From positions 1 to 33,368 of IMG/VR virus record IMGVR_UViG_3300042863_000429: a DNA stretch of 33,368 bases. One strand, 5' to 3'. Positions 2,877 through 10,792 of the stretch are shown here, one piece after another. The notes below the pieces were generated by a model. The model searched no databases. It was not told where the DNA came from and worked only from the letters and a program-made list of their open reading frames with translations. Each line of letters begins with the position of its first letter. The first letter of the stretch is position 1. Source of the stretch: a virus. The position numbers and the translations under genes were made by a program.

Positions 2877-3164
2877 CTAAATAAACTCCTCAATCTTATG
2901 GGTATCTAAGCCAGTATAGGTATGGATTAAACTTCTTAATGCAAAACCACAACTTTCAGCCATCTTCATTCTATCATCAATATCCATTTTATCGTAATCT
3001 TGATTGTCATACATCTTATCCATCAATGCGGTTTGAAAAATAATTGTAGCATTTATAAAATCTCTTTTGGAATAATTTGGCTTATTCTCATCACCTTTTG
3101 CATCAGCGTTTTGATTTAACAAATCGTTGGCGATTAATTTTAATTCTTTTTTATAACTTCTCAT
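2877..3164 (-). CDS. Hypothetical protein at the end of the minus-strand block
   Basis: 95 residues, mostly alpha-helical and charged, with no signal peptide or membrane segment. The N-terminus is basic (MRSYKKELKLIANDLLNQN); the middle (FINATIIFQTALMDKMYDN) and the end (SCGFALRSLIHTYTGLDT) contain conserved-looking hydrophobic helices. Similar short proteins occur in Bacteroidota and their phages, but I cannot name a family. It is the most promoter-distal gene of the minus-strand run and follows an eroded attC-like half-site, so it may once have been a cassette. Confidence 0.6.
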   Translation of the reverse strand: MRSYKKELKLIANDLLNQNADAKGDENKPNYSKRDFINATIIFQTALMDKMYDNQDYDKMDIDDRMKMAESCGFALRSLIHTYTGLDTHKIEEFI

Positions 3165-3211: not shown

Positions 3212-3244
3212 AACAAACATTCGTTTAGCCATTAGTTATGTGCC
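3212..3244 (-). other. Eroded attC-like half-site (cassette end)
   Basis: On the minus strand, right after the stop of the gene at 3246, comes GGCACATAAC followed by TAATGGCTAAACG. This is the left core box (ending in AAC) plus a partial arm resembling those of the full sites at 3482-3583 and 5034-5136. The 10 bases (plus-strand gttatgtgcc, 3235-3244) are the exact reverse complement of 3482-3491 at the other end of the same gene. The second arm that would complete the palindrome is missing. Confidence 0.6.
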
Positions 3245-3245
3245 A

Positions 3246-3464
3246 TTAATCGGACGACTGAATTACATCAATAACGTCTGACAATTTCACATAGTAATCA
3301 TCTTCTATGTAATCACCTTTTAATCTGTTTACTTGCCTTTCAATAATATTTTTCAGACGTTCTTTTATTTCGTCAGTCTTATTTACTTTGTCAAATTCAT
3401 TTTGTTCTTCTAATGAGTGAAAGCTCCTTGTACAAGCTCCACGTCCGCAAATTTCACATCCCAT
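3246..3464 (-). CDS. Cassette-borne protein with N-terminal Cys cluster
   Basis: 72 residues. The N-terminus MGCEICGRGACTRSFHSLEEQ holds C-x2-C-x4-C followed by His, which looks like a small zinc-binding knuckle. The rest is a charged helix with coiled-coil character. Function unknown. The gene is enclosed by a perfect 10-base inverted repeat (3235-3244 and 3482-3491), the arrangement of an integron cassette: core site, gene, attC. Its reading direction relative to the attC also fits. The product may be a small regulator or counter-defence protein, but that is speculation. Confidence 0.65.
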   Translation of the reverse strand: MGCEICGRGACTRSFHSLEEQNEFDKVNKTDEIKERLKNIIERQVNRLKGDYIEDDYYVKLSDVIDVIQSSD

Positions 3465-3481
3465 TTGTTTGATAATTTAAC

Positions 3482-3583
3482 GGCACATAACAAGGGTTTT
3501 GCGTAATAGCCCTATCAAGTGTCGTGGTTAATTTTAAGTTTTCACTAAGGGCTACTACGCAAAGCCCCGATACGTTATAACTC
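3482..3583 (-). other. Integron attC-like recombination site A
   Basis: On the minus strand it reads GAGTTATAAC, spacer GTATC, GGGCTTTGCGTAGTAGCCC, a loop of about 36 bases, GGGCTATTACGCAAAACCC, spacer TT, GTTATGTGCC. The 19-base arms (plus 3549-3567 and 3494-3512) are complementary at 17 of 19 positions, with the remaining two able to form G-U pairs. Outer boxes end in AAC and start with GTT, as in attC sites, and the two spacers differ in length, also typical. It begins at the stop codon of the gene at 3582. Recognition is by pattern; a covariance-model search has not been run. Confidence 0.8.
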
Positions 3584-3797
3584 ATTTTACCAAAGGCGGT
3601 GTAAATTCAGAGTTTTCAGTTTTTTCACAAAACCATTTAACTTCATCTTTGGTTGCTTTTCTTTGAATTAAAGCAACGTGTATCAATTCTTTTCGGCAAT
3701 GTATATCTTGTACAATTGCTCCGTTATCCATTTCTTTTCCTAAATATTGTACTACTTTGTCTTTTAAAGCTACAATATCAAATTTATCTATATTCAT
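3582..3797 (-). CDS. Cassette-borne hypothetical protein
   Basis: 71 residues, soluble, alpha/beta pattern: MNIDKFDIVALKDKVVQYL, then a strand-like IVQDIHCRKELIHVALIQRK and an acidic C-terminus containing WFCEKTENSEF. No family recognised. It is a textbook-sized cassette: the gene fills nearly all the space between GTTATAACTC (plus 3808-3817) and its exact complement at 3574-3583, which overlaps its stop codon and opens attC site A. Probably made from a transcript entering from upstream, since no promoter of its own is seen. Confidence 0.65.
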   Translation of the reverse strand: MNIDKFDIVALKDKVVQYLGKEMDNGAIVQDIHCRKELIHVALIQRKATKDEVKWFCEKTENSEFTPPLVK

Positions 3798-4014
3798 AAA
3801 AAAAACGAGTTATAACATTGGTTTAGCAAAAAAGCGGTTTTAAGCTTACTTTAATGTTGGTTTTGTATTTGTTTTTTTGGGTTTTATAACTCCGCCCAGA
3901 AGTTTTATTGTTTAAAAACTGCAACCACTAACCCCCAAACCAACCTACACCCCCAAACCAAAGCGGAGAGGGTTATGTAAATTGTCAGAGTGATGAATAT
4001 GAAGGCGGTGAGGA
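3798..4014. other. Gap with an attC-like half-site and C-rich repeats
   Basis: No gene fits in these 217 bases. The right-hand core and one arm of an attC-like site lie at 3808-3839 (gagttataac, spacer, ggtttagcaaaaaagcgg), closely like the corresponding arm of site B. The complementary arm is not found at the usual distance. Further along there is a near-direct repeat, cccccaaaccaa, at about 3932 and 3950, and an isolated gttatg at about 3973-3978. I read this as a degraded or rearranged attC. Confidence 0.5.
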
Positions 4015-4170
4015 TCATTTTTCTTTATTGCTTAATTGTTTATTCTTTTGTCGTTCAACCATCAATGCATTTTGAAGTTTAAATATTTCCTTTATAAGAC
4101 TTTCATTCTCTGCTAAGAGATCCAGATACTTGTCGTTGTATTCTGCGAGTAGTTTAAGGAGTTTTTCCAT
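4015..4170 (-). CDS. Small coiled-coil protein
   Basis: 51 residues, entirely helical and charged with leucine heptads (MEKLLKLLAEYNDKYLDLLA, ENESLIKEIFKLQNAL). The start overlaps the stop of the upstream membrane-protein gene (TAATG, sharing base 4170), so the two are translationally coupled. Could be a partner or cytoplasmic adaptor of that membrane protein. Function unknown. Confidence 0.6.
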   Translation of the reverse strand: MEKLLKLLAEYNDKYLDLLAENESLIKEIFKLQNALMVERQKNKQLSNKEK

Positions 4171-4532
4171 TAGTTATTCCTTTTAAATATCTTTTTACGT
4201 TTATCAGTATCAATTGTTTCTGAGTAAAATAATATAGTTATGGGAATGATTAATGATATTACATTCATAGCTACAAACTGTTGGGTGAATCCAAAATCAA
4301 ACCAATAATACAGTAGATTAATCGTCCATGAAATTAGCGCAAAGAAAACTGCGGTATTTCTTTTGCCGATTAAGGTGAATATTAAGATAGAACATTCTAA
4401 AGAAAATGCAAAGATCCAGCTAATTATGTAATCTAATTCCGTTTTCTTGCTAATCATATAAAAAACCTCTGATGCGTGTGTTATTTGGGTTAATAGGGCA
4501 AAACCTATTGTAACTAATATAAATTTTTTCAT
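4170..4532 (-). CDS. Four-span membrane protein of the accessory block
   Basis: 120 residues. Hydrophobic segments at about 3-19, 35-56, 60-78 and 86-106, ending in a basic tail (DKRKKIFKRNN). A Glu in the second segment (SLECSILIFTLIGKRNT) and aromatic residues in the third (INLLYYWFDF) stand out. The first segment is followed by THASE and could alternatively be a cleaved signal peptide. The gene overlaps both neighbours (ATGA with the upstream RHH-like gene, TAATG with the downstream coiled-coil gene). A small phage membrane protein outside the lysis block may exclude superinfecting phages, but this is inference. Confidence 0.65.
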   Translation of the reverse strand: MKKFILVTIGFALLTQITHASEVFYMISKKTELDYIISWIFAFSLECSILIFTLIGKRNTAVFFALISWTINLLYYWFDFGFTQQFVAMNVISLIIPITILFYSETIDTDKRKKIFKRNN

Positions 4533-4681
4533 AACTTAAACCCCTCTCTTTTTAATAACTTGTCAATCTCTTGCTCAATCAGTCGCGTTTGGGCAATGCG
4601 TTTACTTTTGCTAATAGTTTTTAAAGCTGCTCGCTTTTCATCGGTCAAGTATACCGGTATTGATTTTAGTTTTTCAGTCAT
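4529..4681 (-). CDS. Small RHH-like DNA-binding protein candidate
   Basis: 50 residues, ATG at 4681 on the minus strand, stop overlapping the next ATG (ATGA). MTEKLKSIPVYLTDEKRAAL has the strand-then-helix pattern of ribbon-helix-helix (CopG/Arc-type) proteins, followed by a helical QTRLIEQEIDKLLKREG. This would make a plausible autoregulator of its three-gene operon (RHH, membrane protein, coiled coil). The family call is by pattern only. Confidence 0.55.
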   Translation of the reverse strand: MTEKLKSIPVYLTDEKRAALKTISKSKRIAQTRLIEQEIDKLLKREGFKL

Positions 4682-4721
4682 GTGTTTTTTATTTGCGATA
4701 TAAAGTTTCGGGTAGCGATTA

Positions 4722-4731
4722 GTTATAAGAC
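4722..4731 (-). other. Cassette core box at the end of the 4735 gene
   Basis: Plus-strand gttataagac here matches, as an inverted repeat at 9 of 10 positions, ggcttataac at 5034-5043 on the other side of the gene. On the minus strand it is a left core box ending in AAC. No palindromic arms follow towards 4682, so the attC is truncated. Confidence 0.5.
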
Positions 4732-4734
4732 ATT

Positions 4735-4992
4735 TTAGGACACCGCTACGAAAACACGATGCTGACCTGCAACATTCTCTTTTGTGATTTCTCGAATTTC
4801 TTTAAGTTCGACAAGCCTATCCACACAAGCCAAATGCAACCAACTATCGCCAGTTACTCCACTAATAGCATTTTGCATCATTACAGCACCACTTTGTTTT
4901 AAAAGTTGTTGCACTTTGTCACGGATTTTTAAGAATGTTTCTTGACCATCTTCCGTAAAGATTTTTGATTTTTCAGTTGGATAATTGTACAT
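4735..4992 (-). CDS. Conserved-looking hypothetical protein in a cassette
   Basis: 85 residues. The sequence pattern (NYPTEKSKIFTEDGQETFLK, then AVMMQNAISGVTGDSWLHLA, CVDRLVELKEIREIT, AGQHRVFVAV) is one I recognise as a recurring small bacterial protein, with a likely winged-helix fold (helix, helix, VDRLVELGEI-type recognition segment, beta wing). That would suggest nucleic-acid binding, but no function is established to my knowledge. It is enclosed by near-perfect inverted core boxes (4722-4731 and 5034-5043), so it looks like a mobile cassette. Confidence 0.7.
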   Translation of the reverse strand: MYNYPTEKSKIFTEDGQETFLKIRDKVQQLLKQSGAVMMQNAISGVTGDSWLHLACVDRLVELKEIREITKENVAGQHRVFVAVS

Positions 4993-5033
4993 TGTTTTTA
5001 AATTAAATTGTTAAGCCAAACACGAATAAAAAC

Positions 5034-5136
5034 GGCTTATAACAGTGGTTTGGCAAAATACCGCCACAAGCCTTTGCACTATAATTCAACATTTGTGAAA
5101 GGCGGTACTTCGCCAAGCCCCCAAACGTTATACAAC
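5034..5136 (-). other. Integron attC-like recombination site B
   Basis: On the minus strand: GTTGTATAAC, spacer GTTTGGG, GGCTTGGCGAAGTACCGCC, a loop of about 35 bases, GGCGGTATTTTGCCAAACC, spacer ACT, GTTATAAGCC. The 19-base arms (plus 5101-5119 and 5047-5065) pair at 16 of 19 positions, the other three being possible G-U pairs. The left box overlaps the stop codon of the gene at 5128. The layout is the same as site A although the arm sequences differ, which is how attC sites behave: structure conserved, sequence variable. Confidence 0.8.
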
Positions 5137-5370: not shown

Positions 5371-5378
5371 CAAATATA
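5371..5378 (-). promoter_or_regulatory. Promoter -7 box for the minus-strand block
   Basis: Reverse strand TATATTTG, exact match to the Bacteroidota -7 consensus TAnnTTTG, about 25 bases before the ATG of the first minus-strand gene. No clear TTG -33 box at the usual spacing; the upstream DNA is very AT-rich. Confidence 0.55.
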
Positions 5379-5489: not shown

Positions 5490-5708
5490 ATGAAAGTATC
5501 AAAAAACAACTCAGGAATATCAGGCTATTACAAAGGGTTTATAGTTACTGTTGATACAGTACAAGACTTTAAAGAATTAACAAACGAGCAAATAATATCT
5601 GAGGTTAGCAAACATAAATTATACAATGAGTATAAAAATGCTAATCAAGGTTTTGCAATAACTATAAAAGTAAAAGGATTTCCCTGGTTTAAACGAACAA
5701 TCAACTAA
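5490..5708 (+). CDS. Small early protein, unknown function
   Basis: 72 residues from the ATG at 5490; the in-frame codons before it run through the promoter and are not counted. Starts MKVSKNNSGISGYYKGFIVT and ends with FPWFKRTIN; mixed strands and one helix, basic, soluble. First gene behind the rightward promoter, so probably expressed early. No family recognised. Confidence 0.6.
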   Translation: MKVSKNNSGISGYYKGFIVTVDTVQDFKELTNEQIISEVSKHKLYNEYKNANQGFAITIKVKGFPWFKRTIN

Positions 5709-5790
5709 CATTCCAGTTCCAGCAAGTCTGGAATTTGCCGCCTCGCTTGATCAGTCAAGCGGGGATTTGGCAGTACCGGGATGTTCCGGA
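5707..5790 (+). other. Densely folded intergenic RNA element
   Basis: Nested or adjacent inverted repeats: TTCCAG 5711-5716 with CTGGAA 5728-5733; CGCTTGA 5744-5750 with TCAAGCG 5755-5761 (perfect, loop TCAG); outer TGCC/GGCA around it (5736-5739, 5769-5772); CCGG 5776-5779 with CCGG 5786-5789; and AACATTCC 5707-5714 can pair with GGGATGTT 5778-5785 (7 of 8). No T-run follows, so it is not a standard terminator. It may be an attenuator, processing site or small RNA. Confidence 0.5.
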
Positions 5791-5807
5791 TTAAAAACTT
5801 GCATAGA

Positions 5808-5963
5808 ATGAAAAAGTACACAATCGCATTTATGGACAATGATTACAACGATCTAATTGTTAAGAAAGTCCAGTTCAACAACTTAAAGGAAGCTAAAGCA
5901 TTTGCTAAAGTCTACTTAGCTAACCTTTGTGATAATGACATCGTAACATTTAGAATTTACTAA
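5808..5963 (+). CDS. Small early protein, unknown function
   Basis: 51 residues from ATG 5808 (an in-frame ATG at 5781 would overlap the folded element and add nine atypical residues). MKKYTIAFMDNDYNDLIVKK, then FNNLKEAKAFAKVYLANL: a beta-strand, turn, then an amphipathic helix, reminiscent of small phage proteins with a ferredoxin-like half fold. No catalytic motif. Followed after one base by a tiny membrane-protein gene. Confidence 0.6.
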   Translation: MKKYTIAFMDNDYNDLIVKKVQFNNLKEAKAFAKVYLANLCDNDIVTFRIY

Positions 5964-5964
5964 A

Positions 5965-6054
5965 ATGGAAATTTTCATCTTTTTTATTATTATGGTGGCA
6001 GTCCTGATTGGGCTTGCTGGAATTTGTGACTATTTAACTAAGAAATTAAAATGA
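5965..6054 (+). CDS. Very small membrane peptide
   Basis: 29 residues: MEIFIFFIIMVAVLIGLAGI followed by CDYLTKKLK. One hydrophobic span of about 20 residues and a basic tail. It starts one base after the previous stop and its stop overlaps the next start as ATGA (6051-6054). This tight fit on both sides is the best evidence that it is translated. Role unknown; inner-membrane peptide. Confidence 0.5.
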   Translation: MEIFIFFIIMVAVLIGLAGICDYLTKKLK

Positions 6055-6332
6055 ACTTTGACGAATACTATGAAAGATTGCACGAGGCGCAATTTGACAG
6101 AAACGAAAACATTAGCATTAAGGACTGTGAATGTTGCTATGGCTCAGGTAAGATTGAATTTTCTAAATGCTGCGATGTTGAAGTTATTGATGAAGTCTGC
6201 AAGGAGTGCCTTAAGACTTGCAATATTTATACAGAAACTTGCGATGAATGTAAAGGCGAAGGAGAGATTGAAATCGAAAGTAACCACGAACTTGAAGATT
6301 ACGATCGCAGGAGGGATGAAGAAAATGAGTAA
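6051..6332 (+). CDS. Small Cys-rich protein with two DnaJ-type zinc motifs
   Basis: 93 residues, very acidic. It has CECCYGSGK (about residues 26-34) and CDECKGEGE (about 64-72), both C-x2-C-x-G-x-G as in the DnaJ zinc-finger repeats, plus further Cys pairs between them (KCC, CKECLKTC). These would bind one or two zinc ions. No J domain is present, so it is not a DnaJ; small phage proteins with such motifs are known but mostly uncharacterised. Starts by ATGA overlap with the membrane peptide. Confidence 0.7.
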   Translation: MNFDEYYERLHEAQFDRNENISIKDCECCYGSGKIEFSKCCDVEVIDEVCKECLKTCNIYTETCDECKGEGEIEIESNHELEDYDRRRDEENE

Positions 6333-8241: not shown

Positions 8242-8262
8242 TGAATTAGTCAAAAAAATGTG

Positions 8263-8321
8263 AAAATGTGTTGCGGAGTGCCTTTAATATAGTTTAAACG
8301 ATGATTCCCGCAACACATTTT
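8263..8321. other. Long perfect inverted repeat (14 bp arms)
   Basis: AAAATGTGTTGCGG (8263-8276) and CCGCAACACATTTT (8308-8321) are perfect complements, separated by 31 bases that include the palindrome GTTTAAAC. The right arm runs into TTTT, so an RNA hairpin would be terminator-like; as DNA it could be a cruciform or operator/origin site. Together with the G/C tracts and the hairpin at 8411 it fills the 285-base gap 8177-8461, the longest gene-free stretch, which otherwise holds only TTTA repeats (about 8354-8378). Confidence 0.65.
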
Positions 8322-8410
8322 TAAAACAGTAAAAAAACGTGGTGTAATATTGATTTTATTTATTTATTTATTAATTTAGTACTTAGTATTAGCGGATACC
8401 ATCAAAGAAC

Positions 8411-8459
8411 TTAAAGCATTAGGGAGTAGCCGCCGCTACGGTGAAACCTAATTGCTTAA
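8411..8459 (+). promoter_or_regulatory. Leader hairpin of the primase-helicase mRNA
   Basis: TTAAAGCATTAGG (8411-8423) pairs with CCTAATTGCTTAA (8447-8459) with two single-base bulges. Inside is a perfect GTAGC-CGCC-GCTAC hairpin (8426-8439). The structure ends two bases before the ATG at 8462, so it would cover the ribosome-binding region and could control translation of the primase-helicase. It could alternatively be an origin element. Confidence 0.6.
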
Positions 8460-8461
8460 TC

Positions 8462-10792
8462 ATGGAAATATCAGTATTTAAAGACTTATTCAAATCTCAA
8501 GACGTCCCCTTTCACGTTCCACTTGCCAAAGTGATTGAACGAATTAGAAGGGGAGCATCTAAAGATATTCTCGATAAGATACGGTCGGGAGATAAAACAC
8601 TAAAAAATAAACTACCTTGTATTCTCTTTGCAGGGATATTTAATGAAAGAAACTCCAAATCATTAAAGAAGCATTCAGGTCTTATGGTTGTTGATTTTGA
8701 TAAATATCCAGATCAGCAGACAATGGCAATGCATTTGGAATTTCTTAAACAAAACCCACATTTTGTATTACTATTTATTTCACCATCTGGAAATGGACTT
8801 AAGGGAGTTGTAAGAGTATCAGACAATTTAACAAAGGAAACACATCCTTTAATATTTAAGGCTTTTCAGAAGGAGTTTGATTTTGAATACTTTGATATAT
8901 CAAACTCTAATGTTGACCGGGTATGTTTTGAATCTTACGATCCTAATATTTATGTAAATTTAGAAGCAGAGATATTTAATCCTGAAATAAAGGATGAAGG
9001 GTTTATGGTACAAGATAAAGTACCAATGGTTCCCATTACAGATCAGGATCTAATCATTAAGAAAATATTAGAATGGAATTGGAAACGTGATTTTATTGAA
9101 GGGGAGCGTAACACATACATCTTTGATCTGGCAGGAGCCTTTTGTGAGTATGGAATAACATTAGAAAATGCAATAGGATATATTGTCAACAATGTTATTC
9201 ATTCAGGATTTACAGAATTAGAAGCAACAACAGCCATAAAGAGTGCATACAAAAAGAGATCGTTTGAAAGCAAATATTTTGAGGATTATACCAAAATTAA
9301 TCGAATAAAGACTGATCTAAAAAATGGTAAAAAAGAGGTTTTAACAAAGCATAATATTGATGAGGATATTTATAACCAAATCAAAGAGGTTGCAGACATT
9401 GAAGATTTTTGGTATTTTGAAAAGGATAAGTCCGGTAATGATAAAATTAAGATTGATGCTTTTAAATATAAATTATTCTTAGAGCGTAATGGATTTAAAA
9501 AATACTTTCCAAATGAAACCCAAAAGCCTACCTGGGTAAAAATCGAAAGCAATAAGGTCTCTGAAACATCCATAGAAAAGATTAAGGATTTTGTTTTAGA
9601 CTACCTTCTTAAAAACGGAGAGCATAATGTTTGGGGATTTTGTGCTAATTACATGACTCTTTTTAGTGAGAATTATTTGCTCATGCTTAATACAATTGAT
9701 TTAATGCTATTAAAAGACTTAAAGGATAAATCATTTATTGCCTTTAAAAACGGTATTTTAGAGGTTACTAAATCAACTGCCAAACTTATTGATTACATTG
9801 ATGTTAATGGGTATGTATGGGAATCACAGATTATACAGCGTGACTTTGCAAAGAGCGATTATATTGAAAATGATTATAAGGTTTTTGTAAATAATATATC
9901 AAACTCAAACCCAATGCCTATTGAATGTACTATTGGATACCTTCTATCGACTTACAAGAATAAAATGAATAATAAGGCTATAATCTTAAATGATGAGGTT
10001 ATAAGCGAAAACCCAGAAGGGGGAACAGGCAAAGGGTTACTTGTTCAAGGACTCCGGCAGATCAGGCGTGTGTCAATTTTGGATGGCAAGACCTTTGATG
10101 ATAAGAAGTCGTTCCCGTATCAGACAGTAAACCCTGAAACGCAAATATTAGTATTTGATGATGTTAAAAAGAATTTTGACTTTGAGAGCAAATTCAGCAT
10201 CGTTACTGAAGGCATGACATTAGAACGTAAGAATAAGGATGCTATAAAAATAAAGGTTGAGGACAGTCCCAAGATGATGATCAGCACAAACTATGCGATA
10301 AAAGGAGAGGGTAATAGTCATGATAGACGTAGGCATGAGATTGAAATATCACAGTACTATGGCAGGAAATTAACCCCTTATGATGAATTTAATAAACAAC
10401 TTTTTGATGACTGGGATTTATCAGAGTTTGAACGCTTTGACAATTACATGGTCTTATGCTTACAATTATATCTTAATAATGGATTAATCAAACAGGATGC
10501 TAAGAATATTAAACTTAGGAAATTTATTGCTGAAACTTCGATGGAGTTCTATGAATGGATTAGGGATACCGAAAATGTGGCATTAAACACAAGACATGAT
10601 AAGGTCACCTATTTCAATAATTTTATTGATGAGTACCAAGACTTTAAGAAGTGGCTAACCCGCAAGAAATTTAATATCTGGATACAGAAATATTGCACCT
10701 TTGCAGATTTTGATTATAATGATGGCAATTCAAATGGAATGAAATGGTTTAGCATAGGAAAGGAGGTTGACGATGATCCAATCCCTTTTTAA
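8462..10792 (+). CDS. Primase-helicase (VirE_N/BT4734-like primase fused to SF3 helicase)
   Basis: 776 residues from ATG 8462; a GTG at 8441 is in frame but lies within the leader hairpin. N-terminal part resembles the BT4734/VirE_N primase-polymerase region: SGLMVVDFDKYPD (about 70-82), FISPSGNGLKGVVRV (about 104-118) and DISNSNVDRVCFESYDPN (about 147-164). A helical linker follows. The C-terminal SF3-type ATPase has Walker A (EGGTGKGLL, about 518-526), Walker B (ILVFDDV, about 561-567), sensor-like MMISTNYAI (about 605-613) and an Arg cluster SHDRRRHE. The protein would prime and unwind phage DNA at the fork. The next gene overlaps it by 20 bases. Confidence 0.85.
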   Translation: MEISVFKDLFKSQDVPFHVPLAKVIERIRRGASKDILDKIRSGDKTLKNKLPCILFAGIFNERNSKSLKKHSGLMVVDFDKYPDQQTMAMHLEFLKQNPHFVLLFISPSGNGLKGVVRVSDNLTKETHPLIFKAFQKEFDFEYFDISNSNVDRVCFESYDPNIYVNLEAEIFNPEIKDEGFMVQDKVPMVPITDQDLIIKKILEWNWKRDFIEGERNTYIFDLAGAFCEYGITLENAIGYIVNNVIHSGFTELEATTAIKSAYKKRSFESKYFEDYTKINRIKTDLKNGKKEVLTKHNIDEDIYNQIKEVADIEDFWYFEKDKSGNDKIKIDAFKYKLFLERNGFKKYFPNETQKPTWVKIESNKVSETSIEKIKDFVLDYLLKNGEHNVWGFCANYMTLFSENYLLMLNTIDLMLLKDLKDKSFIAFKNGILEVTKSTAKLIDYIDVNGYVWESQIIQRDFAKSDYIENDYKVFVNNISNSNPMPIECTIGYLLSTYKNKMNNKAIILNDEVISENPEGGTGKGLLVQGLRQIRRVSILDGKTFDDKKSFPYQTVNPETQILVFDDVKKNFDFESKFSIVTEGMTLERKNKDAIKIKVEDSPKMMISTNYAIKGEGNSHDRRRHEIEISQYYGRKLTPYDEFNKQLFDDWDLSEFERFDNYMVLCLQLYLNNGLIKQDAKNIKLRKFIAETSMEFYEWIRDTENVALNTRHDKVTYFNNFIDEYQDFKKWLTRKKFNIWIQKYCTFADFDYNDGNSNGMKWFSIGKEVDDDPIPF

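Follow-up and report, generated by a model that had tools for sequence, protein, structure and literature searches.

Arrays of attC-like sites without an integrase have been described in lytic phages, among them a Polaribacter phage, by Qi et al. 2023 (PMC9892861), who report that five of six tested phage sites recombine with IntI1. The main text of that article makes no mention of Flavobacterium phages, some of which may be listed in its supplement. In Bacteroidota, surveys have found hardly any integrons, and IntegronFinder 2.0 found only one complete integron in Bacteroidetes proper (PMC9024848). Flavobacterium phages of the hemulen, sniff and lillamy type, which are relevant below, were isolated from the Baltic Sea and are described as virulent (Nilsson et al. 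2020, PMC7077304).

The headline of a first-pass annotation of the DNA studied here was that integron-type cassettes lie inside a phage genome. As phage arrays of this kind (CALINs) are already published (PMC9892861), this headline alone is not new. Here we compare the locus with related viruses and with bacterial chromosomes, and we conclude that it probably carries mobile cassettes of an integron-like recombination system that is specific to Bacteroidota, in a tailed phage without a recombinase of its own.

The phage and the setting of the sites

The window, i.e. the whole stretch of DNA that was analysed, is 33,368 bases long and spans all of virus record IMGVR_UViG_3300042863_000429. Genes for head morphogenesis and a protease are present, and because virion and lysis genes (terminase, portal, major capsid, tape-measure, endolysin) are present as well, we regard the record as a tailed phage. 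Cellulophaga phage phi17:1 has a capsid protein with about 33% identity to the one encoded here. Both attC-like sites are on the minus strand, between the endolysin/lysis genes and the early genes (Table 1). An Rfam search of the window gave zero matches, a comparison of the cassette block with plasmid records likewise gave zero, and the integron integrase family (TIGR02249) has no match in the window. Elsewhere, a 783-aa protein (8441-10792, plus strand) matches phrog_28855 over its full length (E 2e-152); it lies immediately before a helicase gene and is probably part of the replication module.

For the resident phage gene that precedes site 1, homology to 17 viral relatives extends as far as the stop codon or breaks off there, and in the 12 relatives listed no attC lies directly behind it. 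One of the resident genes between the two inserts encodes a ribbon-helix-helix protein, with an RHH_3 match above cut-off.

Table 1. Positions of the features discussed, numbered from the first base of the window
Feature	Position	Strand	Remarks
attC-like site 1	5036..5133	-	core AAC 5129-5127, hairpin, core G/TT at 5043
attC-like site 2	3484..3580	-	core AAC 3576-3574, hairpin, core G/TT at 3491
Mobile unit A	4723..5127	-	hairpin 1 + 85-aa gene; AA/C at both ends
85-aa cassette protein	4735..4992	-	98% identical in two other viral contigs
Lone core TTATAAC/TAATCG	4717..4729	-	closes unit A; attI-like position
Mobile unit B	3236..3574	-	hairpin 2 + 72-aa gene; AA/C at both ends
72-aa cassette protein	3246..3464	-	94% identical in viral contigs L153/L154
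Lone core ACATAAC/TAATGG	3230..3242	-	closes unit B; attI-like position
71-aa cassette protein	3582..3797	-	89% identical in phages hemulen6-1 and sniff9-1
95-aa protein	2877..3164	-	homologue of a unit at differing positions in lillamy9-1, lillamy9-3 and sniff9-1
Resident phage gene	5128..5346	-	stop codon TAA inside first core
Resident genes between the two inserts	4015..4694	-	ribbon-helix-helix 4529-4681; 120-aa 4170-4532; 4015-4170
Bacteroidota-type promoter element TATATTTG	5371..5378	-	retained in cassette-free relative L159

Structure of the attC-like sites

In each site, paired cores (ending in AAC on one side and beginning with GTT on the other) surround an imperfect stem with a variable loop, as in attC. 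The arms pair at 16 of 19 positions in site 1 (5119-5101 with 5065-5047) and at 17 of 19 in site 2 (3567-3549 with 3512-3494), the loops are about 35 nt long, and the stop codon of the preceding gene marks the start of each site. The first-pass annotation had described the sites in these terms, and its description is borne out by the coordinates and the pairing. Folding of the minus strand as DNA, a check that it had proposed, gave z-scores of -2.1 and -3.9 for the two sites. The whole window has no more than four inverted repeats of this kind; locally shuffled sequence yields a mean of 0.3 registers and a maximum of 3. Two further strong repeats, at 8258-8326 and 818-900 (16-17 of 19 pairs), are not attC-like by the covariance model described next and are possibly terminators.

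The attC covariance model, another check proposed at the outset, was built from 16 sites of other contigs and none from the record; one of these sites belongs to another virus record (L013), and a contig of an archaeal MAG (L032) supplied one more. Candidate sites came from 16 viral contigs and from 15 genome contigs that, with few exceptions, belong to Bacteroidota. They were collected by a left-arm motif that was derived from the record itself, which does not apply to the cores, to the covariation or to the right arm. Applied to the window, the model finds exactly two sites and nothing else: site 1 with 68.4 bits (E 1.4e-16) and site 2 with 71.1 bits (E 2.5e-17). Among the model sites, compensatory changes occur at 10 of 18 stem pairs, which is above all shuffled and all slid controls. 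Two full sites are thus clustered in a record without a TIGR02249 match, which corresponds to the definition of a CALIN (at least two clustered attC sites, no integrase nearby), and the claim of integron-type cassettes in a phage lacking an integron integrase stands.

Site 2 is a member of a near-identical 93-nt hairpin family that stands behind different genes in 13 of the 16 viral contigs. The idea that this family is confined to phages was dropped, as it is also found in two of the 15 genome contigs, whose viral origin is not established. The archaeal contig mentioned above is 44 kb long, was binned with a Nitrosotalea MAG and has at least eight attC sites of the same type; misbinning of DNA from Bacteroidota or a phage is the probable cause.

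An integron cassette opens with bases that pair with the core at the cassette's own end. The record has two 15-nt inverted repeats (3235-3249/3477-3491 and 3574-3588/3802-3816, 93%) in which the start of a cassette complements its own end, and when cassette starts and ends are compared, the own-start/own-end pairs of the record match at 8, 9 and 9 of 10 positions. The same holds for isolated phages, in which 23 distinct cassettes reach 6.30 of 7 with their own end (versus 3.39 with the next cassette and 3.21 +/- 0.28 when shuffled), and for 42 chromosomal cassettes (5.90 versus 3.00 and 2.85 +/- 0.21). Thus, in the phages and in the record, a cassette's start complements its own terminal core and not that of the next cassette. 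This relationship, which the first-pass annotation had missed, is a stronger sign than the hairpins alone.

Cassettes move as whole units

A search for the same cassettes elsewhere, also among the checks proposed, found them in other viral contigs and in isolated Flavobacterium phages. Unit A occurs at 93-94% DNA identity in viral contigs L157 and L158, with homology from 5130 to 4721-4723 and none beyond. Unit B occurs at 95% identity in L154, where homology runs from 3580 to 3235 and ends at the cores. The lone cores at 4724 and 3237 had been considered as truncated attC sites, a reading that was rejected, since they are the ends of the units. A similar sequence, AACTAATSGCTAMMCGAA, lies behind both lone cores (4729-4711 and 3242-3224, minus strand) and could be an attI-like target or the remnant of a hairpin.

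The cassettes of the record encode small proteins, and the 85-, 72- and 71-aa products are conserved at 89-98% identity in unrelated phages. In hemulen6-1 and sniff9-1, the 71-aa gene is part of a cassette with a full hairpin; in the record this hairpin is degraded, as it has lost the left arm and retains the right one (about 3835-3817) together with a core (3816-3810). The 95-aa gene has 76% DNA identity to a sniff9-1 cassette and has no hairpin before it in the record.

Conversely, a relative with a 94% identical lysis region (L159) has the resident genes and lacks both inserts. There, 4168-4694 is uninterrupted at 88% identity, and the promoter reads directly into the ribbon-helix-helix gene. 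Ten isolated Flavobacterium phage genomes (hemulen, sniff, lillamy and others) have 11-15 sites each, essentially all on one strand and at about 1.9 to 10.2 kb, in a block corresponding to that of the record, and their arrays differ by whole units. The clearest case is that of lillamy9-1 and lillamy9-3, both of 38,268 bases, which are collinear except for one identical unit of 439-444 bases that lies at 5642-6080 in one phage and at 2037-2475 in the other, cut exactly at the cores. Because about 130 substitutions separate the two phages, it is possible that the unit was gained twice instead of having moved. Both of its ends are at ATAA/C, with about 5 nt shared at the junctions, and the site lacks hairpin homology, so homologous recombination does not explain the difference.

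These comparisons bear on the possibility that the hairpins serve phages as transcription terminators or belong to a REP-like repeat, and that the mosaic arose by homologous or illegitimate recombination. The hairpins are indeed intergenic, and a 93-nt family that is near-identical in many phages offers homology that could pair. However, the junctions share only the five or so nucleotides of ATAAC, the lillamy unit sits where there is no hairpin homology, cassette-specific complementarity of the cores is unexpected for terminators, and none of 47 loci of the record's own phage family carries a site. Unit boundaries and core complementarity largely refute this explanation, which we consider most improbable. 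The fixed-position terminator or REP family that would have spoken against the first-pass annotation was therefore not seen. Rather, whole units are gained, lost and relocated, with their ends at cores; the cassettes of the record are real mobile units, and related cassettes have been exchanged between phages with exact ends at the cores.

Crossover side and gene orientation

An initial idea, in which a unit consists of a gene and the attC that follows it, was rejected by the lillamy comparison and the homology ends. Judging from aligned sequences, the mobile unit is instead a hairpin with the gene behind it, with a predicted cut on the AAC side (G/TT on the opposite strand). We place the crossover there because the lillamy hairpin stays with the gene behind it, the homology ends agree, and the upstream hairpin is kept more often than the downstream one: a gene has on average 1.12 different upstream hairpins versus 1.53 downstream ones.

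As each hairpin moves together with the gene that follows it, genes in phages have a flipped orientation with respect to attC. This is the case for 80 of 81 cassettes in phages, versus two of 37 on chromosomes. Expressed by the strand of the model, the gene is opposite in 35 of 37 chromosomal cassettes, in one of 57 in virus records and in none of 24 in isolates. Phage genes thereby face the array end that bears the lone core. It is a plausible inference that the flip reflects phage arrays being read from an upstream phage promoter and not from a promoter beside attI.

Given the opposite orientations, a free flow of cassettes from the phage pool to the host pool and back is not supported. Cassette movement by way of phages, as envisaged in the first-pass annotation, is accordingly upheld for transfer between phages, which share units, and not for a common phage-host pool. 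They also raise the alternative of a closed phage system, in which gene-flipped cassettes are moved by a recombinase encoded by a phage or satellite and the chromosomal arrays are distant cousins. The nearly uniform flip (56:1 in virus records, 24:0 in isolates) fits such a system, as do three virus records (G006, G014 and G016) in which the recombinase type described below occurs together with these hairpins; in G006, the recombinase follows immediately upon the lone core that ends a 44-hit array. However, no such recombinase was found in the record by search or in Lillamyvirus by record annotation, and G006 may be no phage, as the eight large ORFs scanned have no clear virion hallmark; for the same reason it was not accepted as a proven phage with its own integron. 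On balance, we regard a closed phage system as unlikely.

Two observations concern recombinases in virus records. Record IMGVR_UViG_3300043411_001575 (169.7 kb; L044-L046, 77-117 kb) has about 44 attC hits in one array, with phage-like gene orientation and a XerA-like recombinase directly behind the closing lone core; the scan of eight large ORFs gave no clear virion hallmark for it. In two near-related 8-kb virus records (L015 and L017), an attC of the 93-nt family and a XerA-like recombinase lie within a few kb.

A recombinase at the ends of chromosomal arrays

Chromosomal arrays built of this kind of site often close with a lone core adjoining a tyrosine recombinase. In six Bacteroidota genomes of a first set with sites, a tyrosine recombinase near the array scores above 95 bits yet below the cut-off of the integrase family. 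The sample used for testing the resulting prediction comprised 60 Flavobacteriales genomes, 13 of which have sites (47 have none), despite the near-absence of integrons in surveys of Bacteroidota. In the array-bearing genomes searched, each of the five recombinases of this type is separated from sites by no more than about 1-5 kb and is on the predicted side; over both sets, the recombinase is on the AAC side in all 11 linked loci. Three Flavobacteriales genomes without sites gave matches of XerC/D grade only. The association has exceptions, in that of 13 high-scoring recombinases, two are on contigs without an attC, and no recombinase of the XerA-like type was found in at least two array-bearing genomes (G026 and G124). 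The recombinase has a lone core beside it that complements the first cassette in Nubsella, Chryseobacterium and G006. Among four more arrays, such a core is present in L207, L208 and probably L210; in L209, none was found.

The recombinases examined are closest to XerA/XerC (NF040815, PDB 5hxy and 4a8e) and share an SPLD/SPFD end with IntI. In an alignment with IntI4, one array-linked enzyme has 21 residues where IntI4 has 64, i.e. about 43 are missing, so the IntI-specific domain is absent. A canonical IntI in these loci was therefore rejected for the recombinases examined, and the Bacteroidota IntI assumed in the first-pass annotation gives way to a XerA-like enzyme. Since an IntI with its domain was looked for and not found, the platform is not an integron by the strict definition, although it seems to work like one.

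These results also weigh on the view that the locus is an ordinary CALIN, with attC sites from a chromosomal integron and a true IntI acting in trans, as in Qi et al. 2023. The site architecture and the cassette complementarity are as in attC, and the published phage CALINs include one of a Polaribacter phage with an attC that IntI1 recombines (PMC9892861). However, none of the 41 genomes or records searched has an IntI above the curated cut-off (TIGR02249), the recombinases next to the arrays lack the IntI-specific domain, and phage genes are flipped relative to chromosomal cassettes. Moreover, the sites of Polaribacter phage P12002L are of another type: their best covariance-model match has an E of 0.017, so that assigning them to the type studied here is unsupported. 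We consider an ordinary CALIN improbable.

Proposed mechanism and cargo

Under the integron-like, Bacteroidota-specific system that we favour, a unit would consist of an attC-like hairpin and the small gene behind it, bounded by ATAA/C cores. During infection, the single-stranded hairpin would be cut at its core by a XerA-like recombinase encoded by the chromosome or by one from another element, and the released unit would be rejoined at another core or ATAAC-like site of the phage. That a XerA-like enzyme moves phage cassettes is suggested by its co-localisation with the arrays. The outcome would be that small accessory genes, in relatives often DNA methyltransferases, form a block open to exchange, situated between lysis genes and early operon.

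Several cassettes of the Flavobacterium phages encode DNA methyltransferases. Phages hemulen, snork and sniff have one such cassette, hemulen6-1 gp014 (L192 6657-7499), which lillamy and morran lack. According to Nilsson et al., the LMO9 phages that plate poorly on LMO6 all lack one particular methyltransferase, and lillamy9-1 and morran9-1 were used to study this plating defect (PMC7077304). The distribution of gp014 agrees with these plating differences, and we infer that gp014 may be the methyltransferase in question. A broader proposal, for and against which we see equal weight, is that Bacteroidota and their phages have in common an IntI-independent system in which attC-like hairpins are recombined by a XerA-like enzyme, and that virulent phages reshuffle their own gene-flipped pool during infection, including methyltransferases that may decide escape from restriction.

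If a recombinase without the IntI domain serves these sites, integron-like capture extends beyond what IntI-based searches can detect. Interchangeable accessory genes in lytic phages would directly explain the fast turnover of small phage genes and anti-restriction methyltransferases. As Lillamyvirus strains have been isolated, the system can be tested in the laboratory.

Comparison with known systems

The interpretation given in the first-pass annotation is, overall, partly supported, and the locus can be placed among described systems as follows. Lillamyvirus and Muminvirus (Nilsson et al. 2020, PMC7077304) are virulent isolates with the same cassettes, in a matching block after the lysis genes. 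The accessible part of that article reports variable methyltransferase genes and plating differences; a link to integrons or attC was found neither there nor in a partial literature search without preprints. The phage CALINs of Qi et al. 2023 (PMC9892861) are alike in being integrase-less arrays with methyltransferase cassettes, and differ in that the accessible part of the article describes no shuffling from isolate to isolate and proposes no recombinase other than IntI.

Sedentary chromosomal integrons (Vibrio, Treponema and others) are alike in their near-identical hairpins, in core complementarity within the cassette and in an end recombinase by a lone core. Unlike them, the present system has a recombinase without the IntI-specific domain, and its phage genes are flipped relative to the site. 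XerA/XerC-like tyrosine recombinases are the closest family of the array-linked enzyme; whereas Xer proteins act on dif, the array-linked enzymes sit at the ends of cassette arrays and have an IntI-like SPLD/SPFD terminus. A partial search that left preprints outside found no prior literature on the Bacteroidota recombinase, the flipped cassettes or natural shuffling. The non-IntI recombinase platform of Bacteroidota, the flipped cassettes and the unit-wise shuffling among isolated lytic phages thus appear to be new and set this system apart from its closest relatives.
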